Virus record (IMG/VR): IMGVR_UViG_3300005663_000037
Span: 1-64,000 of that record
Source: a virus
DNA length: 64,000 nt
Direction: 5' to 3' (one strand)
In this document: in pieces, positions 24,283 to 58,952 of the stretch
Numbering within the stretch: the stretch's first letter is position 1
Layout: each line of letters starts with the position of its first letter
Position numbers and translations under genes: made by a program
The notes under the pieces: generated by a model
Databases searched by the model: none
The model's input: the letters and a program-made list of their open reading frames with translations, nothing else
What the model was told of the DNA's origin: nothing

Positions 24283-24784
24283 TGATACCAGGGAATTTAG
24301 CAATTACCTCAAAGGCTCTTATACCATACAAATCTACATCCTTCAAATCAGGAGCAAACTTTTCTAACTTATGAGGTAAACCAAAAGGAAAAGGAAAGGT
24401 ATCTACCTGTATACCGTCACCTACTTTTAAATCTAACCCTTTTACTCTTCTTCCATTTTCCAACTCCACTCCCTCTATAAGCTCACTGTTTCTATCCCAA
24501 TCTACTACGATATGATAATTCTTTCGCATCTCTGAACGTGTCCAATCAGATCCGTCCATACTCTTTATTAATATCCCACCCCTAGTAGCTTTCTGTATCA
24601 TTGGATATACCACAATAGTATTTTGAAAAGGCGTAACCTTCATAAGCTCATAAACCTCTATAACATGACTAATAAACTGCTTGGCATCCTTTATCCGTTT
24701 CAATTCCTCCTCTGCATCTTTCTTAAGCCGTTCTACTTCAGCAGCATTCACAACCATACCTACACTTTTTCCACCTATACTCAT
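24272..24784 (-). CDS. GroES-like co-chaperonin candidate
   Basis: The 170-residue protein has a helical N-terminal extension (residues 1-45). A GroES-like core then runs MKVTPFQNTIVVYP and ATRGGILIKS (about 48-75), later VKGLDLKVGDGIQV (about 112-126), then LYGIRAFEVIAKF near 152-164. This order (P-L-x-x-x-V-V-V, then GGI-L, then VGD, then the closing strand) matches GroES and phage co-chaperonins such as T4 gp31, which adapt host GroEL to fold the capsid protein. The mobile-loop region is different and longer. Its operon contains the virion genes, consistent with that role. Confidence 0.5.
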   Translation of the reverse strand: MSIGGKSVGMVVNAAEVERLKKDAEEELKRIKDAKQFISHVIEVYELMKVTPFQNTIVVYPMIQKATRGGILIKSMDGSDWTRSEMRKNYHIVVDWDRNSELIEGVELENGRRVKGLDLKVGDGIQVDTFPFPFGLPHKLEKFAPDLKDVDLYGIRAFEVIAKFPGINGI

Positions 24785-25818
24785 AGTTTCTCAATTATTT
24801 TAGTTAATACTACTTTATCCATTTTTTCTTGTTTCTTTATTTCCTCAATCAAATCTAGATCTACAACATCCGTAATAGCCTCATCTAGTATTGCAGTCAG
24901 AATATCCGGAGGAAGAGCATCTAACTCCCAACTAACTCCTCCATACTTATTCATATACCCTTTAGCTCTAGGATCTTTTATCTTTGCCGGATCGGGAGGA
25001 AGATCATATTGTTCTATCTGCCCTAGGGTAAGAGCAATAGATTCAACAGTAAGATACCTTCTCATATAAGCCTTGGTTGCGTCATAATTACCCTGATTCC
25101 TACCTATTCTTATAAGAAACCTCTTATCCTCTAGTAGTAGCTCCATGTCTTCTTCATACTCCTCAGTAGTAATGTATTTATTTAAAACCCTCTCAAAGTC
25201 TCGCATCACTCTTGCCCCCGACATCATTGTTAAAAGCCGATCCTCTATATCCCGTATCATGTCTATACCAGATGGATCGTGGTCGCCCATATAGATAATC
25301 CTAACTGGTATACCAATTCTTAGATAATAATACATTCGTTCAAACCCTTCATAGATAGCCGTTATCGAGGTATACCCTCTATTAACCATTAGATTGATAT
25401 GATACTTACTAGTCACCGGATACAGAATACCAGATAGTGCATCTTTCTCTGTCCAAACTTCTATATACTCTGACTGTCCTTCCATTCTGTCAAGCCTATA
25501 CACATCATGTTCATTTTCAATAGCTTCCTTTGGATCACTTACAGCGTAAGGAATCCTAGGTCGTCTAACTCTATCCTCAATAGCTGTCCAATCTACGAGA
25601 CCGCTCAATCTTCCTTTTGTTAATAAAGAACCAAGTCGATTGTACTCTGTTACCTTATTAGAAATCTCCTTCATTGTTACTAGTCGATAGTATAATTGTC
25701 GTAAGGTCAGGTTATACCCCTTTTCTATATAATCATTAATTATACCATTTACCATATCCAGTCTAGCTAGACTCATTTCCTTCAATGTTATTGAATGATC
25801 AAATATTTCTTTTCCCAT
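24781..25818 (-). CDS. Topoisomerase VI-A/Spo11-like (Mini-A type) protein
   Basis: The 345-residue protein shows both halves of the type IIB topoisomerase A fold. Residues 38-46 read TLRQLYYRL, matching the R-x-(I/L)-Y-Y catalytic-tyrosine motif of the winged-helix 5Y-CAP domain. The TOPRIM domain follows, with E124 in EVWTEKDAL and the D-x-D pair D179/D181 in YMGDHDPSGIDM. Later GGVSWELDALPPD is also conserved in phage members as I remember them. This family makes double-strand breaks or passages with a B-type ATPase; stand-alone A-like proteins are known from mobile elements. No adjacent B subunit exists here, but a GHKL-like protein is encoded at 53468-54865. Overlaps the next gene by 4 nt. 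Confidence 0.65.
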   Translation of the reverse strand: MGKEIFDHSITLKEMSLARLDMVNGIINDYIEKGYNLTLRQLYYRLVTMKEISNKVTEYNRLGSLLTKGRLSGLVDWTAIEDRVRRPRIPYAVSDPKEAIENEHDVYRLDRMEGQSEYIEVWTEKDALSGILYPVTSKYHINLMVNRGYTSITAIYEGFERMYYYLRIGIPVRIIYMGDHDPSGIDMIRDIEDRLLTMMSGARVMRDFERVLNKYITTEEYEEDMELLLEDKRFLIRIGRNQGNYDATKAYMRRYLTVESIALTLGQIEQYDLPPDPAKIKDPRAKGYMNKYGGVSWELDALPPDILTAILDEAITDVVDLDLIEEIKKQEKMDKVVLTKIIEKL

Positions 25819-45853: not shown

Positions 45854-48800
45854 ATGCAAGTAAAACATAACATTTATTTCCTGACATTAAGAACGCATAG
45901 TGAGATAAAGCGATTTCCTATTATTCGATCAATAGAACCAGTAATCGAAGCATTAAGAAAAACAGACTCCATCGGATTTGACCGGGAGTTTACTAATCTC
46001 GATCCAATATTGGCAGAACCCTTACTCAGTCAGATCGCTACACCTGAGGTAGCTTTTATAATTGATGATGTCTCAATAGACCTGGGAGAGATTCTGAAAG
46101 ACTTTACACACCTACAGTTCATAGGTCACAATATAAAGATAGACTACCAGATGACCAAGCTAAATAATAATATAGTCTTTAGAAACGTTTGGGATACAAT
46201 GATAGTAGACCAAAGACTATCTCTAGGTTCTGGTAGGTCGAATGCACTTGAAGCAACTGTTGAAAGAAGATTGGGTATACGTCTGGATAAGAGTAGAGTT
46301 AAACTGTTCATAGGTATGACACCTGACAGTACGATCACAGATGAACACTTAGAATATGCTATAGAAGATGTTCTCTATCTACATAATGTACGAGAAAGTC
46401 AACGTAAATCTATTGAGAAACATAAACATGAACTGTTGCTTTACGATATTGAGTTTCCTTTAGTGTCTTTGATAGGAGATACAGAATTAGAAGGAATGAT
46501 ACTTCTAGAAAAGTGGAAGGAACAAATTACATATAATGAGAAGATACGACAGGAGATAGAAATAGGATTAGATAAAATACTCTTAGAAATATATGAAAAT
46601 CAGAGTGGCTTTGAGGAGCATGAGGGGTTAAAGCCATTAGTTCCTGTCCTTAGAAGGAAAAGAAGATATGAAAAGACATATAAACTTGATCTCTTTGAAG
46701 ACTCTGCAATAAGTAAAAATGCTAACGCTCGATTTATAAACTATAACTCATCGAAGCAAGTTCTGGACATATTCAGACTACTCGGTTTATGGATTCCTAC
46801 AGCAAAGAAGAAGGATGCTAAGACCGGAGTAAAAAAAGTAATAAATTCTGTAAGTGAAGAGGCTCTACAGCAATATATCATAGACTATGATACAGTTCTT
46901 ACTCCTTTTATAAAAGAGTTACTAAAACTTAAAGGAGTAATAAAGGGATTAGATTCATTTGGAGAAAGATTTTTAGTTAGTAAGTATAAGGTATATAAAG
47001 GAGGAAGGAAAGACCAGTCTAAGATAGGATTTAAGAATCCAGTAACGGGAAAGGTTCATACTCTATACAAGCAAGCTATGACTGAGACCGGTAGATTAGC
47101 TAGTGGTAATGAGAAGATAGGGAAGTTCAATTCACAGAATGTACCAAAAGATAATAGATACCGCACCTGTTTCGGAGTAGAAGAAGGTTTTGAGGTAGTA
47201 ACAGCAGATCTATCAGGAGCTGAATTAGTAATAGGAGCTTCACTATCTGGTGACAAGAGACTATTAGAGTTGGTAGCTGGAGATGATCCTGATGTACATA
47301 GTCCTTTAGCAGAGATATGTTATGATGAAATTACAAGTTATATTCTTAATAATATAAAAGGAGAAAGACAAAGAAAGGAATTAGAGGAGTTATATGAAGC
47401 TGCAGAGTATATTTATGGGGATGAGAGACACGAGATTACCCAAAAACGAGTAAAGGAAGTACTAGAAACCGGTCACTTTGTTCTTAATAAAGAGACAGCT
47501 AAAGACATAAGAGATAAGTTTAAGAACGTTAGCTATGCCTTACCTTATGGAGGAGGCGTAGAAAGAATCATGGATATTCTCAATATGGCTAATGCCTATG
47601 CAACAATTGTAGAAAGTACATTAAAGAACGAACTTCCCGACTTCTTCAAGTATCTTGAAGGTAGTGCTAAACAAGGAGTTGAGAATGGAGTAGTTTACTT
47701 CAATTCAAGAACTAATAGTAGAAGATGGTTTCCTAAGGCAATGGAAGCTAATAGCAGACGACAACGACTCTCATTTGCTGATCAAGGTGCAATTGAAAGA
47801 GAGAGTAAGAATGCCGGTATTCAAGGATGCCTACAAGGTCATAGTAAAGTATTAACAGAATTAGGATATATAGAAATAAGTAAAATACATAGGAAGATGG
47901 AAAAGCCAATGAAAGTATGGAACGGTAACAAGTGGTGTGAATTCAATGTTTTAGACAGAGGATCATGCCAACTAGCTCAGGTGCATCTTTCTAATGGCCT
48001 GATGCTAGACTGTGATACTCGCCATGAATTGTTAGTAGTTACAGAGGAGAGAAGCAGCTTCAAAAAAGTTACCGAACTTACGTCAGAAGATAAAGTAGCT
48101 ATGAGTATGCCGGAACCTATGGATGTAGGAATACCTCCTCAATCCTTTAGTTATAAGGCAGGAGTACATAACTCTATTTCTTTTGACTATCAACCTGACT
48201 CAGAGTTATTCTATTGGATAGGTAGATATTTGGGTGACGGTAATATGTACGACTATCGGCTGGTTATTGTATTTTCTACTAAGCCTAGTGATTTAGAAGC
48301 ATTGGCTCGTGCAGAGACATACTTTGCAGGGTTTAATCCAAAGGTAAGGAAAGTAAAAGAGAATCTGTATGAGTTCACAGTAAACTCAAAGGGATTAGTA
48401 AAATTGATAGAGGCACAAGGGTTTAAGCAAAATAAAACTGCTAAAACTAAGAGAATACCAAACAGTATCTTTTCCCTTCCCTTAGAGTATAGGAAAGAGC
48501 TAGTAAGAGGTTTTATGGGAGCAGACGGATGGTTAGGTAGTAGAATAACCTTACATCTTGCTCAACGTGAAATATTAGTAGAAATGATGAGACTTCTACG
48601 TACCTGTGGTGTTGCTTCTCGTTTGCACGGCCCTTATAAATATAAAGAATTTACTAGCTATAGATTGGATATTAGTAAGCGTTTGTATCTAGAGCATATG
48701 GAAGGAATTAAAACTCCTAATACCTATCCTCAAACTTATGCTACAAGAGCAATGAAAGAAAGATTTGCAGAGCACTACAAGTACAAACGAAACTTATTTA

Positions 48801-49276
48801 AGACTGGGAGTAGTGAAAGATCTTTGTTTAATCGTATGTTGGTTCATGACCCAAGAGACATTTCCGTATATAAACTTAAAGAAATGGATATAGAGGGAGC
48901 AATAGAGATCTACGACTATGATACTTTCGAAAAGCTCGTAGTATTGGAAGAAGAGGCTGTTACTTATACCTTAGAAGTAAAGGACTTATCTCATAGATTT
49001 GATAGTGAGGGAATTATCTCAAAAAATACTCAAGCTGATATGCTTAAAGAAGCTACAGTAGACTATTTCTATCAATACATTCAACCTAACAACCTAGAGG
49101 AACGTGTTAAGTTTCTTCTATTTGTTCATGACGAGATAGCTATAAAGATACCAAAGGGAGAACATCATCACGCAGATAAATTAAAGTTTCATATGAGTCA
49201 AGCTGCTAATAGATACTTGATACCAAGTATTAAGATGGGAGCTGAATATAAAATAAGAAAGACATGGATAAAGTAG
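45854..49276 (+). CDS. polA: DNA polymerase family A with 3'-5' exonuclease, interrupted by an intein
   Basis: 1140 residues as read, 740 after splicing. The exonuclease domain has D43 and E45 in GFDREFT, D97 in NIKIDYQM, and D172 in YAIEDVLYL. Polymerase motif A is VVTADLSGAEL with D452, motif B is RDKFKNVSYALPYGGG (553-568), and motif C FVHDEIAIKIP has D1093 and E1094. A 400-residue intein (659-1058) interrupts the NAGIQG/TQADMLKEA segment of the fingers-palm region. The enzyme would copy the phage genome with the helicases and primases in this arm. Its end overlaps the next gene by 13 nt. Confidence 0.85.
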   Translation: MQVKHNIYFLTLRTHSEIKRFPIIRSIEPVIEALRKTDSIGFDREFTNLDPILAEPLLSQIATPEVAFIIDDVSIDLGEILKDFTHLQFIGHNIKIDYQMTKLNNNIVFRNVWDTMIVDQRLSLGSGRSNALEATVERRLGIRLDKSRVKLFIGMTPDSTITDEHLEYAIEDVLYLHNVRESQRKSIEKHKHELLLYDIEFPLVSLIGDTELEGMILLEKWKEQITYNEKIRQEIEIGLDKILLEIYENQSGFEEHEGLKPLVPVLRRKRRYEKTYKLDLFEDSAISKNANARFINYNSSKQVLDIFRLLGLWIPTAKKKDAKTGVKKVINSVSEEALQQYIIDYDTVLTPFIKELLKLKGVIKGLDSFGERFLVSKYKVYKGGRKDQSKIGFKNPVTGKVHTLYKQAMTETGRLASGNEKIGKFNSQNVPKDNRYRTCFGVEEGFEVVTADLSGAELVIGASLSGDKRLLELVAGDDPDVHSPLAEICYDEITSYILNNIKGERQRKELEELYEAAEYIYGDERHEITQKRVKEVLETGHFVLNKETAKDIRDKFKNVSYALPYGGGVERIMDILNMANAYATIVESTLKNELPDFFKYLEGSAKQGVENGVVYFNSRTNSRRWFPKAMEANSRRQRLSFADQGAIERESKNAGIQGCLQGHSKVLTELGYIEISKIHRKMEKPMKVWNGNKWCEFNVLDRGSCQLAQVHLSNGLMLDCDTRHELLVVTEERSSFKKVTELTSEDKVAMSMPEPMDVGIPPQSFSYKAGVHNSISFDYQPDSELFYWIGRYLGDGNMYDYRLVIVFSTKPSDLEALARAETYFAGFNPKVRKVKENLYEFTVNSKGLVKLIEAQGFKQNKTAKTKRIPNSIFSLPLEYRKELVRGFMGADGWLGSRITLHLAQREILVEMMRLLRTCGVASRLHGPYKYKEFTSYRLDISKRLYLEHMEGIKTPNTYPQTYATRAMKERFAEHYKYKRNLFKTGSSERSLFNRMLVHDPRDISVYKLKEMDIEGAIEIYDYDTFEKLVVLEEEAVTYTLEVKDLSHRFDSEGIISKNTQADMLKEATVDYFYQYIQPNNLEERVKFLLFVHDEIAIKIPKGEHHHADKLKFHMSQAANRYLIPSIKMGAEYKIRKTWIK
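47828..49027 (+). mobile_element. Intein with LAGLIDADG-type homing endonuclease domain in polA
   Basis: The insert begins with Cys659 (CLQGHSKVLTELG), has block B in CDTRHEL (T722, H724), and LAGLIDADG motifs in WIGRYLGDGN (D795) and RGFMGADGW (D891). It ends TYTLEVKDLSHRF, then GIISKN with Asn1058, followed by Thr1059 as the +1 residue. That is class 1 splicing chemistry. The penultimate residue is Lys rather than the usual His, which is odd but tolerated in some inteins. Both aspartates of the endonuclease are present, so homing may be active. The insertion site lies in a highly conserved polymerase motif. Confidence 0.85.
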
Positions 49277-53347: not shown

Positions 53348-53517
53348 TGACTTATGATGAATAGAAATTCTTAACCCTAGAAGAGGAACGAAGTTTTAAT
53401 GAGGAAGAAGAACTAGACCGTGAGGAAGTTCTTCTTCTACTTAACGAAGATAAAAGAGAACAACAGTATGGAAATGGAAGAAATAACGATGACAGAAATA
53501 CAAGTAACGAAGAGTGA
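53347..53517 (+). pseudogene. Short acidic gene with in-frame amber codon
   Basis: An ATG overlapping the previous stop reads MTYDE, then TAG at 53362-53364, and continues in frame as KFLTLEEERSFNEEEELDRE to a TGA at 53515. The first five codons and the long acidic rest look like one gene interrupted by amber. TAG is a true stop elsewhere in this phage, so this is a broken gene, an error or site-specific readthrough. It overlaps the next gene by 50 nt. Confidence 0.4.
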
Positions 53518-54865
53518 GTCAGAGGAAAATTTAAACAAAGAGACTCTAGAGGTACCAGAACCTAAGTACTTAAAGATACAAAATAGCTCAGTACTTCCAC
53601 TAGCCTTACTCTTTATGCTTGGTGCATCTACTAAGAAAGAAGATGCATCAAAGTTTGGAGAGTTTGGTACAGGATTAAAATATTCAATAGCTTACTTTGC
53701 CAGAACCGGAATCAAACTAAGAATGTTTCTTGGTAAAAAAGAGATTACCTATGCTGTTCATCCAAAGACAGTTAGGAAGCGTGTATTTAATCTTATCTAT
53801 ATTAACAATAGGAGTACAGGATATACTACTGAATATGGATCAGGATGGAAAGCATGGGAAGTAGTAAGAGAGATTTGGTGTAATGCTATTGATGAAACTA
53901 ACATTACCAAAGAAGTTGTAACAAAAGATCAAATAGAAGGTACTGCTAGACATACTACATTTTTTCTAGAATTACAAAAACCTCTCCAGGACGTAGTAGA
54001 TAATTGGGAAGATCATTTTCTAGAAACGGCTACTCCCCTTTATACTAGCTTCTCGCTAGACATTTATCAAAGTACCGGATCTCTTAGATTGTATAAAAAC
54101 AAAGTGCTAATTCATAGTGCTGGAAAAGATGCACCTAGATCCTTATTCTATTATGACATAAAGGATGCTCCTCTCAATGAGTTAAGAGAATACAGAGGGT
54201 GGACAGAGTACGATATAGTTAAAGCGGTTACTCAGTCTAGTGAGAAAATAGCAGGAATGTTAGTACAAGCATTCCATAGTTACTATGAAGGTACGGAAAG
54301 TAATTCAGAACAGCAAAGTAAATATGACTTTCATGAGCGTAGTTTAGATTATGCGTTCTATTCTTCCTACATCTCAAAGGAAAAGATATACGAAAACTTT
54401 AAAGGTAAGCTATATGTGTCTAGAGACTCTAGTAGGGGAATAAAACATGGAGCTAAGGTATCTAAGGGACTTCTCAAATTATTAGGAAAATGTGGACTGA
54501 AGACTAGTGATCTCTTGAGCTATGGAGGTTATGGTGGAGGAGGATACGCTTCACGTATCGAGTATGAAGTTCTTCCTAATCCTAGACTAGAAGAGAAGAT
54601 AAACCAGATCTTAAAGAAATACAGTTTATCTCTTAATTTTAATGTAATGATTCCTATTGATGGAAAAGATGTAGACGTGGCTTTGGCCTCTGAATCTACT
54701 GTCTCCTTTAACACAAGACTAGAAACAGTAGATACTAGAGAGTTAGCCTCCATAGTCTTGACAGGACTTGTATTAGCCAGAGAAAAAAGCTATATTGTTC
54801 TTAAAAGACTAATAAAAACAACTTTATCAAACAATAAGAAACTAAAGGCAGTCTTAGAATTATGA
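53468..54865 (+). CDS. GHKL-ATPase-like protein with rearranged motif order
   Basis: Start at 53468 (MEMEEITMTEIQVTKSESEE) is chosen over an upstream GTG. In this 465-residue protein LGASTK (51-56) and SKFGEFGTGLKYSIAYFA (61-78) resemble the lid and G2 box of GHKL ATPases. WEVVREIWCNAIDE (130-143) resembles the N-box (E-x3-N-A-x-D). In ordinary GHKL proteins the N-box comes first; here it comes second, suggesting circular rearrangement. The rest (about 230-465) has no recognised domain. It could be an ATPase partner of the topoisomerase VI-A-like protein at 24781-25818, or another DNA-motor protein. The DxGxG box appears lost or altered. Confidence 0.5.
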   Translation: MEMEEITMTEIQVTKSESEENLNKETLEVPEPKYLKIQNSSVLPLALLFMLGASTKKEDASKFGEFGTGLKYSIAYFARTGIKLRMFLGKKEITYAVHPKTVRKRVFNLIYINNRSTGYTTEYGSGWKAWEVVREIWCNAIDETNITKEVVTKDQIEGTARHTTFFLELQKPLQDVVDNWEDHFLETATPLYTSFSLDIYQSTGSLRLYKNKVLIHSAGKDAPRSLFYYDIKDAPLNELREYRGWTEYDIVKAVTQSSEKIAGMLVQAFHSYYEGTESNSEQQSKYDFHERSLDYAFYSSYISKEKIYENFKGKLYVSRDSSRGIKHGAKVSKGLLKLLGKCGLKTSDLLSYGGYGGGGYASRIEYEVLPNPRLEEKINQILKKYSLSLNFNVMIPIDGKDVDVALASESTVSFNTRLETVDTRELASIVLTGLVLAREKSYIVLKRLIKTTLSNNKKLKAVLEL

Positions 54866-55299
54866 AAAAATTAATATTTCTAATGCTATTGATACTAGGA
54901 GCAGTATTTATAGCACATAGTCAACTAAAGACGGTTGACATTACCCGTACGGCAATCGGGTATCAGATTGATATTTTAGACTGGGACAGCTATGAAATAA
55001 GTAGCTATACTTACACTGGTAATTCTACTAGTGGTATTCTATATAACAACTATTCCTACTCACCTGTTCAAATCACAGTAGAGTCAGAATGTTACAACAA
55101 TACAGATAAACTTTTAGACTTAACATATGACACCGAGCGAATTAAAAACACAATGGCAGATTGGAGTAGTAGCAAAATTCAAAACACCTCAGGTAAATGG
55201 ACATGGGACAGTAGTAGCGGGAACAGGAACAGGCAAGACCCGTATAGCTATTATCTTGATCCAAGGCTTAAACCAAAAGTCTCCTGGAAAATCGACTGA
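54862..55299 (+). CDS. Secreted protein candidate overlapping helicase gene
   Basis: A 145-residue protein with a signal peptide: MKKLIFLMLLILGAVFIAHSQ, cut probably after HS or SQ. The mature part is beta-rich with many Tyr, Ser, Thr (DWDSYEISSYTYTGNSTSGI). The final 57 codons overlap the start of the SF2 helicase gene in another frame. It may be a surface or periplasmic protein. Function unknown. Confidence 0.5.
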   Translation: MKKLIFLMLLILGAVFIAHSQLKTVDITRTAIGYQIDILDWDSYEISSYTYTGNSTSGILYNNYSYSPVQITVESECYNNTDKLLDLTYDTERIKNTMADWSSSKIQNTSGKWTWDSSSGNRNRQDPYSYYLDPRLKPKVSWKID

Positions 55300-56671
55300 T
55301 GTAGTAGTTCCGAGTAGAAATTTGAAGAGGGATTGGGAGAAGACGGGAGGTCACATAGAGCAATGGGGATTAAAGGATGTTCATGTATTTGTAATAAACA
55401 CATACAAGAACTTACGAAGATCCCCAACGCTTCTAGTTTTAGACGAAATACATAACTACTCAGCTCCTACATATAAGTTATTATTTACTAACTCAAGCTA
55501 TAGCTTCTTATTAGGTCTTACTGCAACAATAGAAAGACTTGACCATGAACATTACTTCCTATTAGATAAAGCTCCTGTTTTTGAGAAACTATCTTTAGAA
55601 AAAGCTAGGAAGATGCAATTCGTGTCAAATTACGTTGCCATTAACTATGGAATAGAGCTTAGTGTTGAAGATCAGGATAAATCATCGGAGTGGGATGCTA
55701 TGGTAAGTAGTACGTTTTCTAAGTTTTCTCACAATTGGGCACTTGCTAGAGCCTGCGCAGGAGGTTACCTCGTACCTGCTGTTGTATTCTTTCACAAATT
55801 TGAAGATATAAACAATCTTACGGAGGTATCAGACGGAGCTAAAATAGCTATAACAAAGACTAGTAGAGATTGGAGATTATGGTATGCAACTCAGATGGGA
55901 TGGGATGGGTTTACAAAGGAGGCCTACTTTAGTCCTCATACTTTACAACGAGAAGCTAATATTTTTACTCAGGCTACTAAGGCTAGAGAAAATTTCCTTC
56001 ACAATCATCCATTAAAGCTAGAAACCATTCAAGAGATTAGGAACTTATTTCCTGGAAAGAAGATGGTTGTGTTCTCACAACGGACAGACTTTGCTGATGA
56101 AGTAGCTTTAAAAATTCCAAACTCTTTCTCCTACCATAGTAAGACGTGTGGAGAGATAAGAGTACCAAGGAGTTTACCTCATAGTGATATTGTAGTAGGT
56201 CGGGGAATCCGAGTAGAGATTGCTGGAAAGAAGACACCTGTAATTAGGTATCGAGATCTAAATGATGGTACAGTAGAACAGTGGCCTTGGTTTAAGCAAG
56301 AATACCCTGGATGTAAGAGAATAGGTGCTGCAAGTTATAAGGAAGAGATGATGGATAAGTTTAGGGCCAATGAGATTACTACCTTATCAACTGTTGTAAC
56401 TCTAGACGAAGGCTTTGATGTGGAAGGAATAGAGATTGCAATTATAGCAAGTGGAACTGGCGTAGGAAGACAAAACATTCAGAGAATGGGACGTGCTGTT
56501 AGATTTGTAGATGGAAAAACTGCTTTTATATTTAATCTCTACTTTAAAGACACCCAAGATGAGAAATGGTTAAACCGTAGACAGTTTGGAAATACTAATC
56601 CTGTATGGATGAGCTCTTTAAACTATGACAAACTTTTAGATCTAATTACCGATGAAAGAAAAAATATCTAA
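55127..56671 (+). CDS. SF2 superfamily helicase
   Basis: The 514-residue protein has Walker A in VVAGTGTGKTRIA (residues 29-41), motif II VLDEIH (D106, E107, H109), motif III-like GLTATIER (130-137) and motif VI RQNIQRMGRAVRF (about 451-463). These mark an SF2 DEAD/DEAH-like helicase. Within a replication module it probably unwinds DNA or remodels proteins for recombination or replication start. The start lies inside the upstream gene (172-nt overlap), since the Walker motif needs it. Confidence 0.8.
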   Translation: MTPSELKTQWQIGVVAKFKTPQVNGHGTVVAGTGTGKTRIAIILIQGLNQKSPGKSTDVVVPSRNLKRDWEKTGGHIEQWGLKDVHVFVINTYKNLRRSPTLLVLDEIHNYSAPTYKLLFTNSSYSFLLGLTATIERLDHEHYFLLDKAPVFEKLSLEKARKMQFVSNYVAINYGIELSVEDQDKSSEWDAMVSSTFSKFSHNWALARACAGGYLVPAVVFFHKFEDINNLTEVSDGAKIAITKTSRDWRLWYATQMGWDGFTKEAYFSPHTLQREANIFTQATKARENFLHNHPLKLETIQEIRNLFPGKKMVVFSQRTDFADEVALKIPNSFSYHSKTCGEIRVPRSLPHSDIVVGRGIRVEIAGKKTPVIRYRDLNDGTVEQWPWFKQEYPGCKRIGAASYKEEMMDKFRANEITTLSTVVTLDEGFDVEGIEIAIIASGTGVGRQNIQRMGRAVRFVDGKTAFIFNLYFKDTQDEKWLNRRQFGNTNPVWMSSLNYDKLLDLITDERKNI

Positions 56672-57230: not shown

Positions 57231-58218
57231 ACTATTAACGAGAACATTACCTATAGTTACTGCAAAACAGGCAGCAGAATTAGCACTTAAGGAGATAGAA
57301 GAAGGAAGATCTGGTATACAACGATCCCTTCTTACTAGATGGAAGCATGTAAATAATTTACTCGTAGGTGGATTCAGATTTGGCAATACCTATGTATTAG
57401 GAGGAATGTCTGGTGGAGGAAAGTCTTATAAGCTAAACATGCTAAGAGAAGATTTCTTAAACAAGGAACTCAATAGTATGTTTACTAAACCATTTAGGCT
57501 TATACACTTTGCAATGGAGATGAGTGCTTCTGATGAAGTACTAAGAACAGTAGGAGGTAATATTAAGACCTCCTATCAGTCCTTAATATCTGCCTTTAGA
57601 AAACTTCCGGATCAAAAATTTACAGAAGCTATGGCTTATCTGGAATCCATGAAACATTTGGACATGGACTTTGTCGAAGTAACTGGAAACGTTCTTCAAC
57701 TAAAACAGACAATACTAGAGTATCAAGCTAAGTATCCTGGAATAAATCTTATAGTCTCTCTTGATCATACATTACTTACAGATTATCTTAATGAAAAAGA
57801 TGAAATACAATTAGTAACAAACGTGTCAAAGATGTTTCTCAGCGCAAGGAAAGAAATAGGTTGCATGGGAATTATAGTTGCTCAGTTAAATGATAAGATT
57901 GAGGATATAAGTAGAATTGGTAAAGCAAATTTTCATTATCCTACTAAGAAGGATATACATGGAGCAAAGGCAATATACAGAGATGCAGATTGTGTAATGG
58001 TTCTCCATGATCCTAGTCAACTAGGGATAAGAAGATACGGCCCAGAAAGTAATCCAGATGGACAAGGTGGACTTGGGTATACAACAGAGGATAGAGTCTT
58101 CCTTCATGTACTAAAGATGCGGAAGGGAGTTCCTGGAATGATTGTATTTACTCAAGACTTTAAGAATGGTAATTTACATGAGGAAATAATAAATGCACCA
58201 AGATTAGTAATAGAATGA
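57220..58218 (+). CDS. Replicative DNA helicase, DnaB-like
   Basis: The 332-residue protein is a RecA-fold motor: Walker A in LGGMSGGGKSY (60-70), then HFAMEMSASDEV typical of DnaB H1a, a Walker B in VSLDHTLL (about 179-186), and IIVAQLNDKIED (Q arm). It lacks an N-terminal DnaB domain, so it is a short DnaB/gp4-like ring helicase that would need a loader. It overlaps both neighbours, indicating one operon. Confidence 0.75.
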   Translation: MESKLLTRTLPIVTAKQAAELALKEIEEGRSGIQRSLLTRWKHVNNLLVGGFRFGNTYVLGGMSGGGKSYKLNMLREDFLNKELNSMFTKPFRLIHFAMEMSASDEVLRTVGGNIKTSYQSLISAFRKLPDQKFTEAMAYLESMKHLDMDFVEVTGNVLQLKQTILEYQAKYPGINLIVSLDHTLLTDYLNEKDEIQLVTNVSKMFLSARKEIGCMGIIVAQLNDKIEDISRIGKANFHYPTKKDIHGAKAIYRDADCVMVLHDPSQLGIRRYGPESNPDGQGGLGYTTEDRVFLHVLKMRKGVPGMIVFTQDFKNGNLHEEIINAPRLVIE

Positions 58219-58952
58219 CAGAAATAGCAACACAGCCGAAACCAACGGCAAAACCTGCAAGATTTAGATCATTACTTATAGATACAATTAGTCAACTACA
58301 AGACGATCAGTATCTAGCAGAATTAGCTGCGGCTAAATCAAAGAAATTGGAGTATGATGAATGGAGGAATCATGGAGTGAGTATCTTAACTCTGTATAAA
58401 ACAATAAAATCTCTTTCGGATACTACAGTAATTCAAGTCTTAGGATACGAAGGTACGGGGAAGAGTATGGGTGGGTACTATTTAGATCCAACTGAAACCT
58501 TTTGGTTAAATATTGATAAGAAACCACTACCCTGGGCCGGATGGAAGAAGACTTATGGGGATAAGCACAAAAACTACGCAGTGTCTTCAAGTTATTCAGA
58601 AGTAGAAGAGTTCATTACAGAGGCGCATTCTAGAGCTAAGAAACCGTTTGTAGTCTTTATACTAGGTCATTTGGAAGACTTCACCAGTGTAAGAGGAGAA
58701 AAAAGACAACAGCTTAGAGTGATAGGTAAGATGGCACATAAGCACAATATAGAAGGAGCACTTGTTCATAACTACTATACTCGTATAGATGAGACTAAGG
58801 ATGCGCTTGATCCCGAAAGGTATCTACTATCTACTCAAAACTCGGGACTTAATACAGCAAGATCACCCTTTTTATTGTGGGATAAGATGCATATACCTAC
58901 CAATTTCCAGAATATCGTTGATGCAGTCGTCAAAGATTGGAATGAAATTTAG
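58215..58952 (+). CDS. Sak4-like RecA-fold ATPase
   Basis: The 245-residue protein has a Walker A loop VLGYEGTGKS (75-84), a later strand with FVVFILGHLEDF (about 146-155) and a C-terminal helical part. Sequence order resembles phage Sak4/AAA_24 single-strand annealing or recombination proteins. A disordered proline-rich start (TQPKPTAKPAR) precedes it. It would act in recombination with the nearby SSB-like proteins. Confidence 0.6.
   Translation: MTEIATQPKPTAKPARFRSLLIDTISQLQDDQYLAELAAAKSKKLEYDEWRNHGVSILTLYKTIKSLSDTTVIQVLGYEGTGKSMGGYYLDPTETFWLNIDKKPLPWAGWKKTYGDKHKNYAVSSSYSEVEEFITEAHSRAKKPFVVFILGHLEDFTSVRGEKRQQLRVIGKMAHKHNIEGALVHNYYTRIDETKDALDPERYLLSTQNSGLNTARSPFLLWDKMHIPTNFQNIVDAVVKDWNEI

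Follow-up and report, generated by a model that had tools for sequence, protein, structure and literature searches.

The locus examined here raises the question of whether a protein that carries the motifs of a GHKL ATPase in an unexpected order is nevertheless such an ATPase, and, if so, which part of the chain has moved. GHKL ATPases (Hsp90, gyrase, MutL, MORC, and histidine kinases) are recognized by motifs that follow a fixed order, and of these the N-box carries the catalytic glutamate and a Mg-binding asparagine. The window, the 64,000-nucleotide stretch of viral DNA that was analyzed, comes from a virus record of 100,621 bases. A plus-strand gene at positions 53468 to 54865 encodes a protein of 465 residues, numbered here from the ATG at 53468; the ORF is open from a GTG at 53420 upstream. 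From its N-terminus, the protein presents a D-box-like strand recognized from the alignment and the predicted structure, KYLKIQNSSVLP (residues 33 to 44; 53564 to 53599), the ATP lid motif LGASTK (residues 51 to 56; 53618 to 53635), the G2 box FGEFGTGLK (residues 63 to 71; 53654 to 53680), and predicted β-strands after the G2 helix (53717 to 53803). The N-box, REIWCNAIDE (residues 134 to 143; 53867 to 53896), comes after all of these, within a strand-and-helix segment spanning residues 114 to 146 (53807 to 53905). Beyond it lie a G3-like strand with T163 (53954 to 53971) and a transducer-like motif, YDI...NELR (Y229, E238, and R240; 54152 to 54187). All of these features are encoded on the plus strand. 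Single-sequence Pfam scans of the protein, in native and reordered form, gave no GHKL match, and a direct phmmer search against the PDB returned nothing useful.

The protein is a member of PHROG 8203 (E = 2.4e-33), a family listed as of unknown function, some members of which are annotated as HATPase or ATP-binding protein. Relatives were found in 72 phage records, in 25 loci of bacterial and metagenome-assembled genomes, and in at least 376 IMG/VR stretches. We take the bacterial loci to be prophage-like, because those that were read adjoin RecT, ERF, and YqaJ genes. An alignment was built from 102 members collected from phages and these prophage-like loci. The placement of the N-box after the lid and G2, as originally noted for the window protein, is real and more than a chance arrangement: every one of the 102 has the order D-box-like strand, lid, G2, and then N-box, and none carries an E...N..[DE] motif ahead of the D-box. 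N-box residues E135, N139, and D142, lid residue K56, and G2 glycines G64, G67, and G69 are invariant in the alignment, and T163 is conserved in 101 members. The D-box (D.G.G) of the family is a variant that keeps only one of its glycines and has asparagine in place of the usual adenine-binding aspartate (in 95 of 102 relatives). Most relatives begin M-K-Y-L-K-I-x-N-x-G, which puts the D-box strand at the very N-terminus; the window protein differs from most of PHROG 8203 in having about 32 extra N-terminal residues, and its clade lacks the C-terminal EExxH...D motif described below.

A search with a Yuavirus member of the family gave weak matches to Vequintavirinae proteins, confined to the first 56 residues. 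These proteins are members of PHROG 6077, some entries of which are annotated as histidine kinase-like ATPase, and their N-box segment is at the N-terminus, e.g., KLSITENYVSHWSWWQGARELMQNAID. PHROG 6077 (Vequintavirinae, Abidjanvirus, and Vibrio phages) shares with the permuted family the same D-box, lid, and G2 region, the W...RE...NA.D N-box segment, and the Y and R of the transducer-like motif, but its N-box strand and helix are N-terminal, i.e., in the canonical order. Two of the canonical-order ATPases (L205 and L225; Acinetobacter phage ABPH49 and Serratia phage Kashira) are apparently identical over the residues compared, with different stated hosts.

Comparison of the two families by hhalign located the difference. 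In native order, the profile of the permuted family matched the canonical family in two out-of-order pieces with scores of 115.8 and 60.1: the first runs from the D-box to the transducer region (E = 1.5e-17), and the second pairs window residues 116 to 145 with canonical residues 5 to 34 (E = 1.3e-8). When residues 114 to 146 (33 residues) were put at the front, a single collinear alignment resulted, with a score of 176.8 and an E value of 2e-27; the two native pieces total 175.9, and the segment move therefore costs nothing. Rotation of the whole domain scored 126.4 against the canonical family, below the segment move, and whole-domain circular permutation was rejected after giving the worse score with both the canonical family and Hsp90 profiles. 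The PHROG 6077 HMM, which was built by others and is independent of our family alignment, matched single permuted proteins in the order 41 to 105 and then 6 to 38, followed in one protein by a further match at 160 to 242. In a tree of the reordered sequences, which had no outgroup, permuted and canonical proteins split cleanly with support of 1.0. As judged from these alignments, the strand and N-box helix have almost certainly been relocated from the N-terminus to a position between the post-G2 strands and the G3 strand. The circular permutation envisaged in the original prediction gives way to a smaller change, in which only about 33 residues moved and the G3 strand and the Y..E.R motif stayed put.

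Similarity to Hsp90 points the same way. The best score of the native profile against Hsp90 was 31.3; with the segment moved, it was 52.1 (E = 4.7e-7), collinear from the N-box to G3, and in profile alignments the G3-like strand becomes collinear with Hsp90 when the N-box segment is either moved or deleted. Among 60 random block orders scored against Hsp90, the seven best all have the N-box block ahead of the lid/G2 block, which argues that the score tracks motif order and not any chance reshuffle. With MutL as the target profile, the reordered family showed no clear gain. AlphaFold2 models were predicted with a mean pLDDT of 84 for the window protein (mostly >90 in residues 69 to 270) and 92 for a relative, L061. 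The best PDB matches identified by Foldseek were to Hsp90 for both models (E = 9e-6 and 3e-4, respectively), with weaker matches to MORC4, GyrB, and topoisomerase II. The Hsp90 matches have TM-scores of at most 0.27 by query length and an rmsd of ∼17 Å; such low values are expected when a sequential aligner meets a permuted chain, and the fold is not proven by them. Matches to viral structures in BFVD include canonical-order relatives from Erwinia phage pEp_SNUABM_01 and Pseudoalteromonas phage H101. The family shares the N-box, lid, G2, and G3 motifs with Hsp90/HtpG but differs in their order, and the middle and C-terminal domains of Hsp90 are not seen as such in the window protein. The ATPase heads of MORC, sacsin, and GyrB, to which matches are weak, share the STK lid and the GxFGxG box but have the canonical order. 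Together with the canonical sister family, the Hsp90 comparisons uphold the part of the original prediction that called this a GHKL protein with rearranged motifs: it is probably a Bergerat-fold GHKL ATPase of the Hsp90/MutL type, with its first secondary-structure unit relocated within the chain. In the folded protein, the moved segment most likely occupies its customary position, which would leave all elements of the ATP site present.

Since a complete D-box, lid, and G2 come before the N-box, one might suppose that the N-box opens a tandem second ATPase domain, or is a chance motif, and that the first domain has lost its own N-box. This is very improbable: the family alignment contains no second D-box or G2 after the N-box, the segment and its preceding strand match the canonical N-terminus (E = 1.3e-8), and the N-box is invariant in 102 of 102 members. 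The direction of change was presumably from canonical to permuted, because Hsp90, MutL, and MORC have the canonical order. The permuted order may have originated by a tandem duplication of the N-terminal half, if the first copy then lost its N-box unit and the second copy its D-box-to-G2 part. We found no earlier report of a GHKL segment permutation in the open-access literature.

The original prediction also paired the ATPase with a topoisomerase VI-A-like protein of the same virus, as a split, rearranged type IIB-like topoisomerase. This Toprim protein is encoded on the minus strand at 24781 to 25818 (PHROG 6247; E = 1.2e-73); its best phage relatives are from Flavobacterium phages, at 41% identity. 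Another phage relative is that of Pseudomonas phage NP1; a review labels the NP1 protein Mini-A and treats Mini-A proteins as truncated homologues of Top6A that stand alone in phages (PMC7614492). Both genes are in the same genome, and the ATPase, like topo VI-B, is a GHKL protein, but the two are rarely found together, so that the pairing fails the co-occurrence check proposed with the original prediction. Of 50 records that carry the ATPase, some of them possibly fragments, 3 also contain the VI-A-like family, and five named phage records that were checked all lack it; no accession was common to the ATPase and VI-A-like phage matches among the matches listed. A viral-contig search with the VI-A-like protein returned no relatives. 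The Foldseek match of the window model to topo VI-B was weak (2zbk_B; E = 0.66). With the partner being of a known Mini-A type that stands alone in phages, the proposed topoisomerase is highly unlikely, and we judge the Mini-A protein to lie outside the ATPase system.

The surroundings of the ATPase are replication and recombination genes. In the window, it is grouped with genes for a ligase, a DnaB-like helicase, a ResIII helicase, a Sak4-like protein, a primase, and PolA; the Sak4-like single-stranded DNA annealing protein is encoded in the same early gene block (58215 to 58952, plus strand; phrog_2872; E = 1.3e-23). Across loci, nearby genes include RecT, ERF, YqaJ, AAA_24, Sak4-like, SSB-like, and DnaB, and 36 of 102 loci have a neighbor in selected DnaB, nuclease, helicase, NinB, SSB, DnaQ, or ERF clusters; the names of these recombination and replication clusters were partly read from sequence, and some only were confirmed by Pfam. 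No partner gene is constant across the 102 loci, the commonest neighbor family being present in 15. That family (at L026, L023, L054, and L090, among others) is uncharacterized, with proteins of about 200 to 340 residues, and is a possible partner. There is likewise no fixed small downstream partner, in that the protein encoded just downstream of the ATPase gene in Yuavirus does not resemble the one in Abidjanvirus. In the window, the ATPase stop codon is also where a small plus-strand ORF with a signal-peptide-like start (54862 to 55299) begins; its last ∼170 bases run, in another frame, into the beginning of the downstream helicase ORF (55127 to 56671, plus strand). The PolA-like protein (45854 to 49276, plus strand) is 1,140 residues long and has a weak match to an intein N-terminal model (TIGR01445; E = 0.031), possibly reflecting an intein insertion.

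The C-terminal part of the ATPase is predicted to form a domain (54557 to 54826, plus strand) that resembles minimal metallopeptidases in Foldseek searches, profile comparison with Proabylysin, and motif counts. With both models, Foldseek matched abylysin, jannalysin, or selecase (best probabilities of 0.92 to 0.98, those to abylysin and jannalysin with the window model being 0.95 to 0.98; TMt of about 0.5; E = 0.1 to 0.2), and family profiles gave weak matches to Proabylysin over its HExxH helix (E = 0.028 and 0.39). These metallopeptidases carry HExxH plus a histidine, whereas the permuted family has EExxH plus an aspartate, fused to the ATPase. The motif EExxH...D.[TSC]R.[FLM]Q is present in 76 of 95 long members; in a second alignment, A6, its invariance is by construction, as that alignment was picked for the motif. 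HExxH occurs anywhere in just one of the long sequences (L022, HEGLH). The window protein has neither EExxH nor HExxH, and its clade has lost the EExxH...D motif, so the ATPase head is conserved without it.

As to function, the permuted protein quite likely binds and hydrolyzes ATP. ATP binding and hydrolysis would be accompanied by closing of the lid; by analogy, the protein probably dimerizes through the ATPase head, and the nucleotide state would be passed on via the Y..E.R transducer region, as in Hsp90, MutL, and MORC. In the phage, such a protein could serve as an ATP-operated clamp or switch in replication and recombination. The nearby recombination and replication genes speak for this role, though neighbors vary between loci; a part in DNA metabolism is a tentative assignment, somewhat short of an even chance.

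Other functions can be envisaged for the same architecture. Replacement of the D-box aspartate by asparagine in almost all members might indicate a pseudo-ATPase that binds and senses nucleotide without hydrolysis; the catalytic glutamate and Mg-binding asparagine are invariant in 102 of 102 members, however, making this quite unlikely. T4 rIIA provides another precedent. In this phage protein, too, a GHKL ATPase domain is joined to a C-terminal domain that varies; rIIA, whose GHKL domain is N-terminal, has been described as counter-defense (PMC7824862), and the permuted protein might similarly be an anti-defense or exclusion factor that blocks host or prophage defenses. The BFVD matches include one RIIA-like protein, and one canonical-order relative is annotated as an RIIA lysis inhibitor. 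Against this, the RIIA match is weak (E = 8.4e-4), rIIA has the canonical order as far as described, PADLOC matches are marginal, and the gene surroundings are those of replication and recombination; we regard such a role as rather unlikely, if the least so of the alternatives. One canonical-order protein (L206:2842-4056) has a weak PADLOC match to TmtA over the N-box-to-G2 region (E = 2.1e-4).

The C-terminal domain could instead be the effector, as an ATP-gated metallohydrolase in which E-E-x-x-H...D ligands are controlled by the ATPase head. The fold matches to abylysin, jannalysin, and selecase, the weak profile match over the HExxH helix, and the EExxH...D.[TS]R.FQ motif in 76 of 95 long members favor this, but two zinc ligands are apparently replaced (H to E and H to D), the profile E values are marginal, and the motif is lost in the window's clade. 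We consider this reading improbable. A bolder combination, in which the segment-permuted Bergerat core and the E-E-x-x-H...D metal site make up a phage ATP-gated hydrolase, with the N-box helix maybe donated in trans within a dimer, is likewise unlikely.

What stands at the center of these results is the predicted segment-permuted GHKL ATPase itself. The phage family it represents is large, departs from the GHKL motif order, is invisible to Pfam, and stays labeled as unknown. Its existence suggests that the GHKL core can accommodate its catalytic helix at another place in the chain, and, because a sister family retains the canonical order, how the rearrangement folds and how it evolved can be tested directly.
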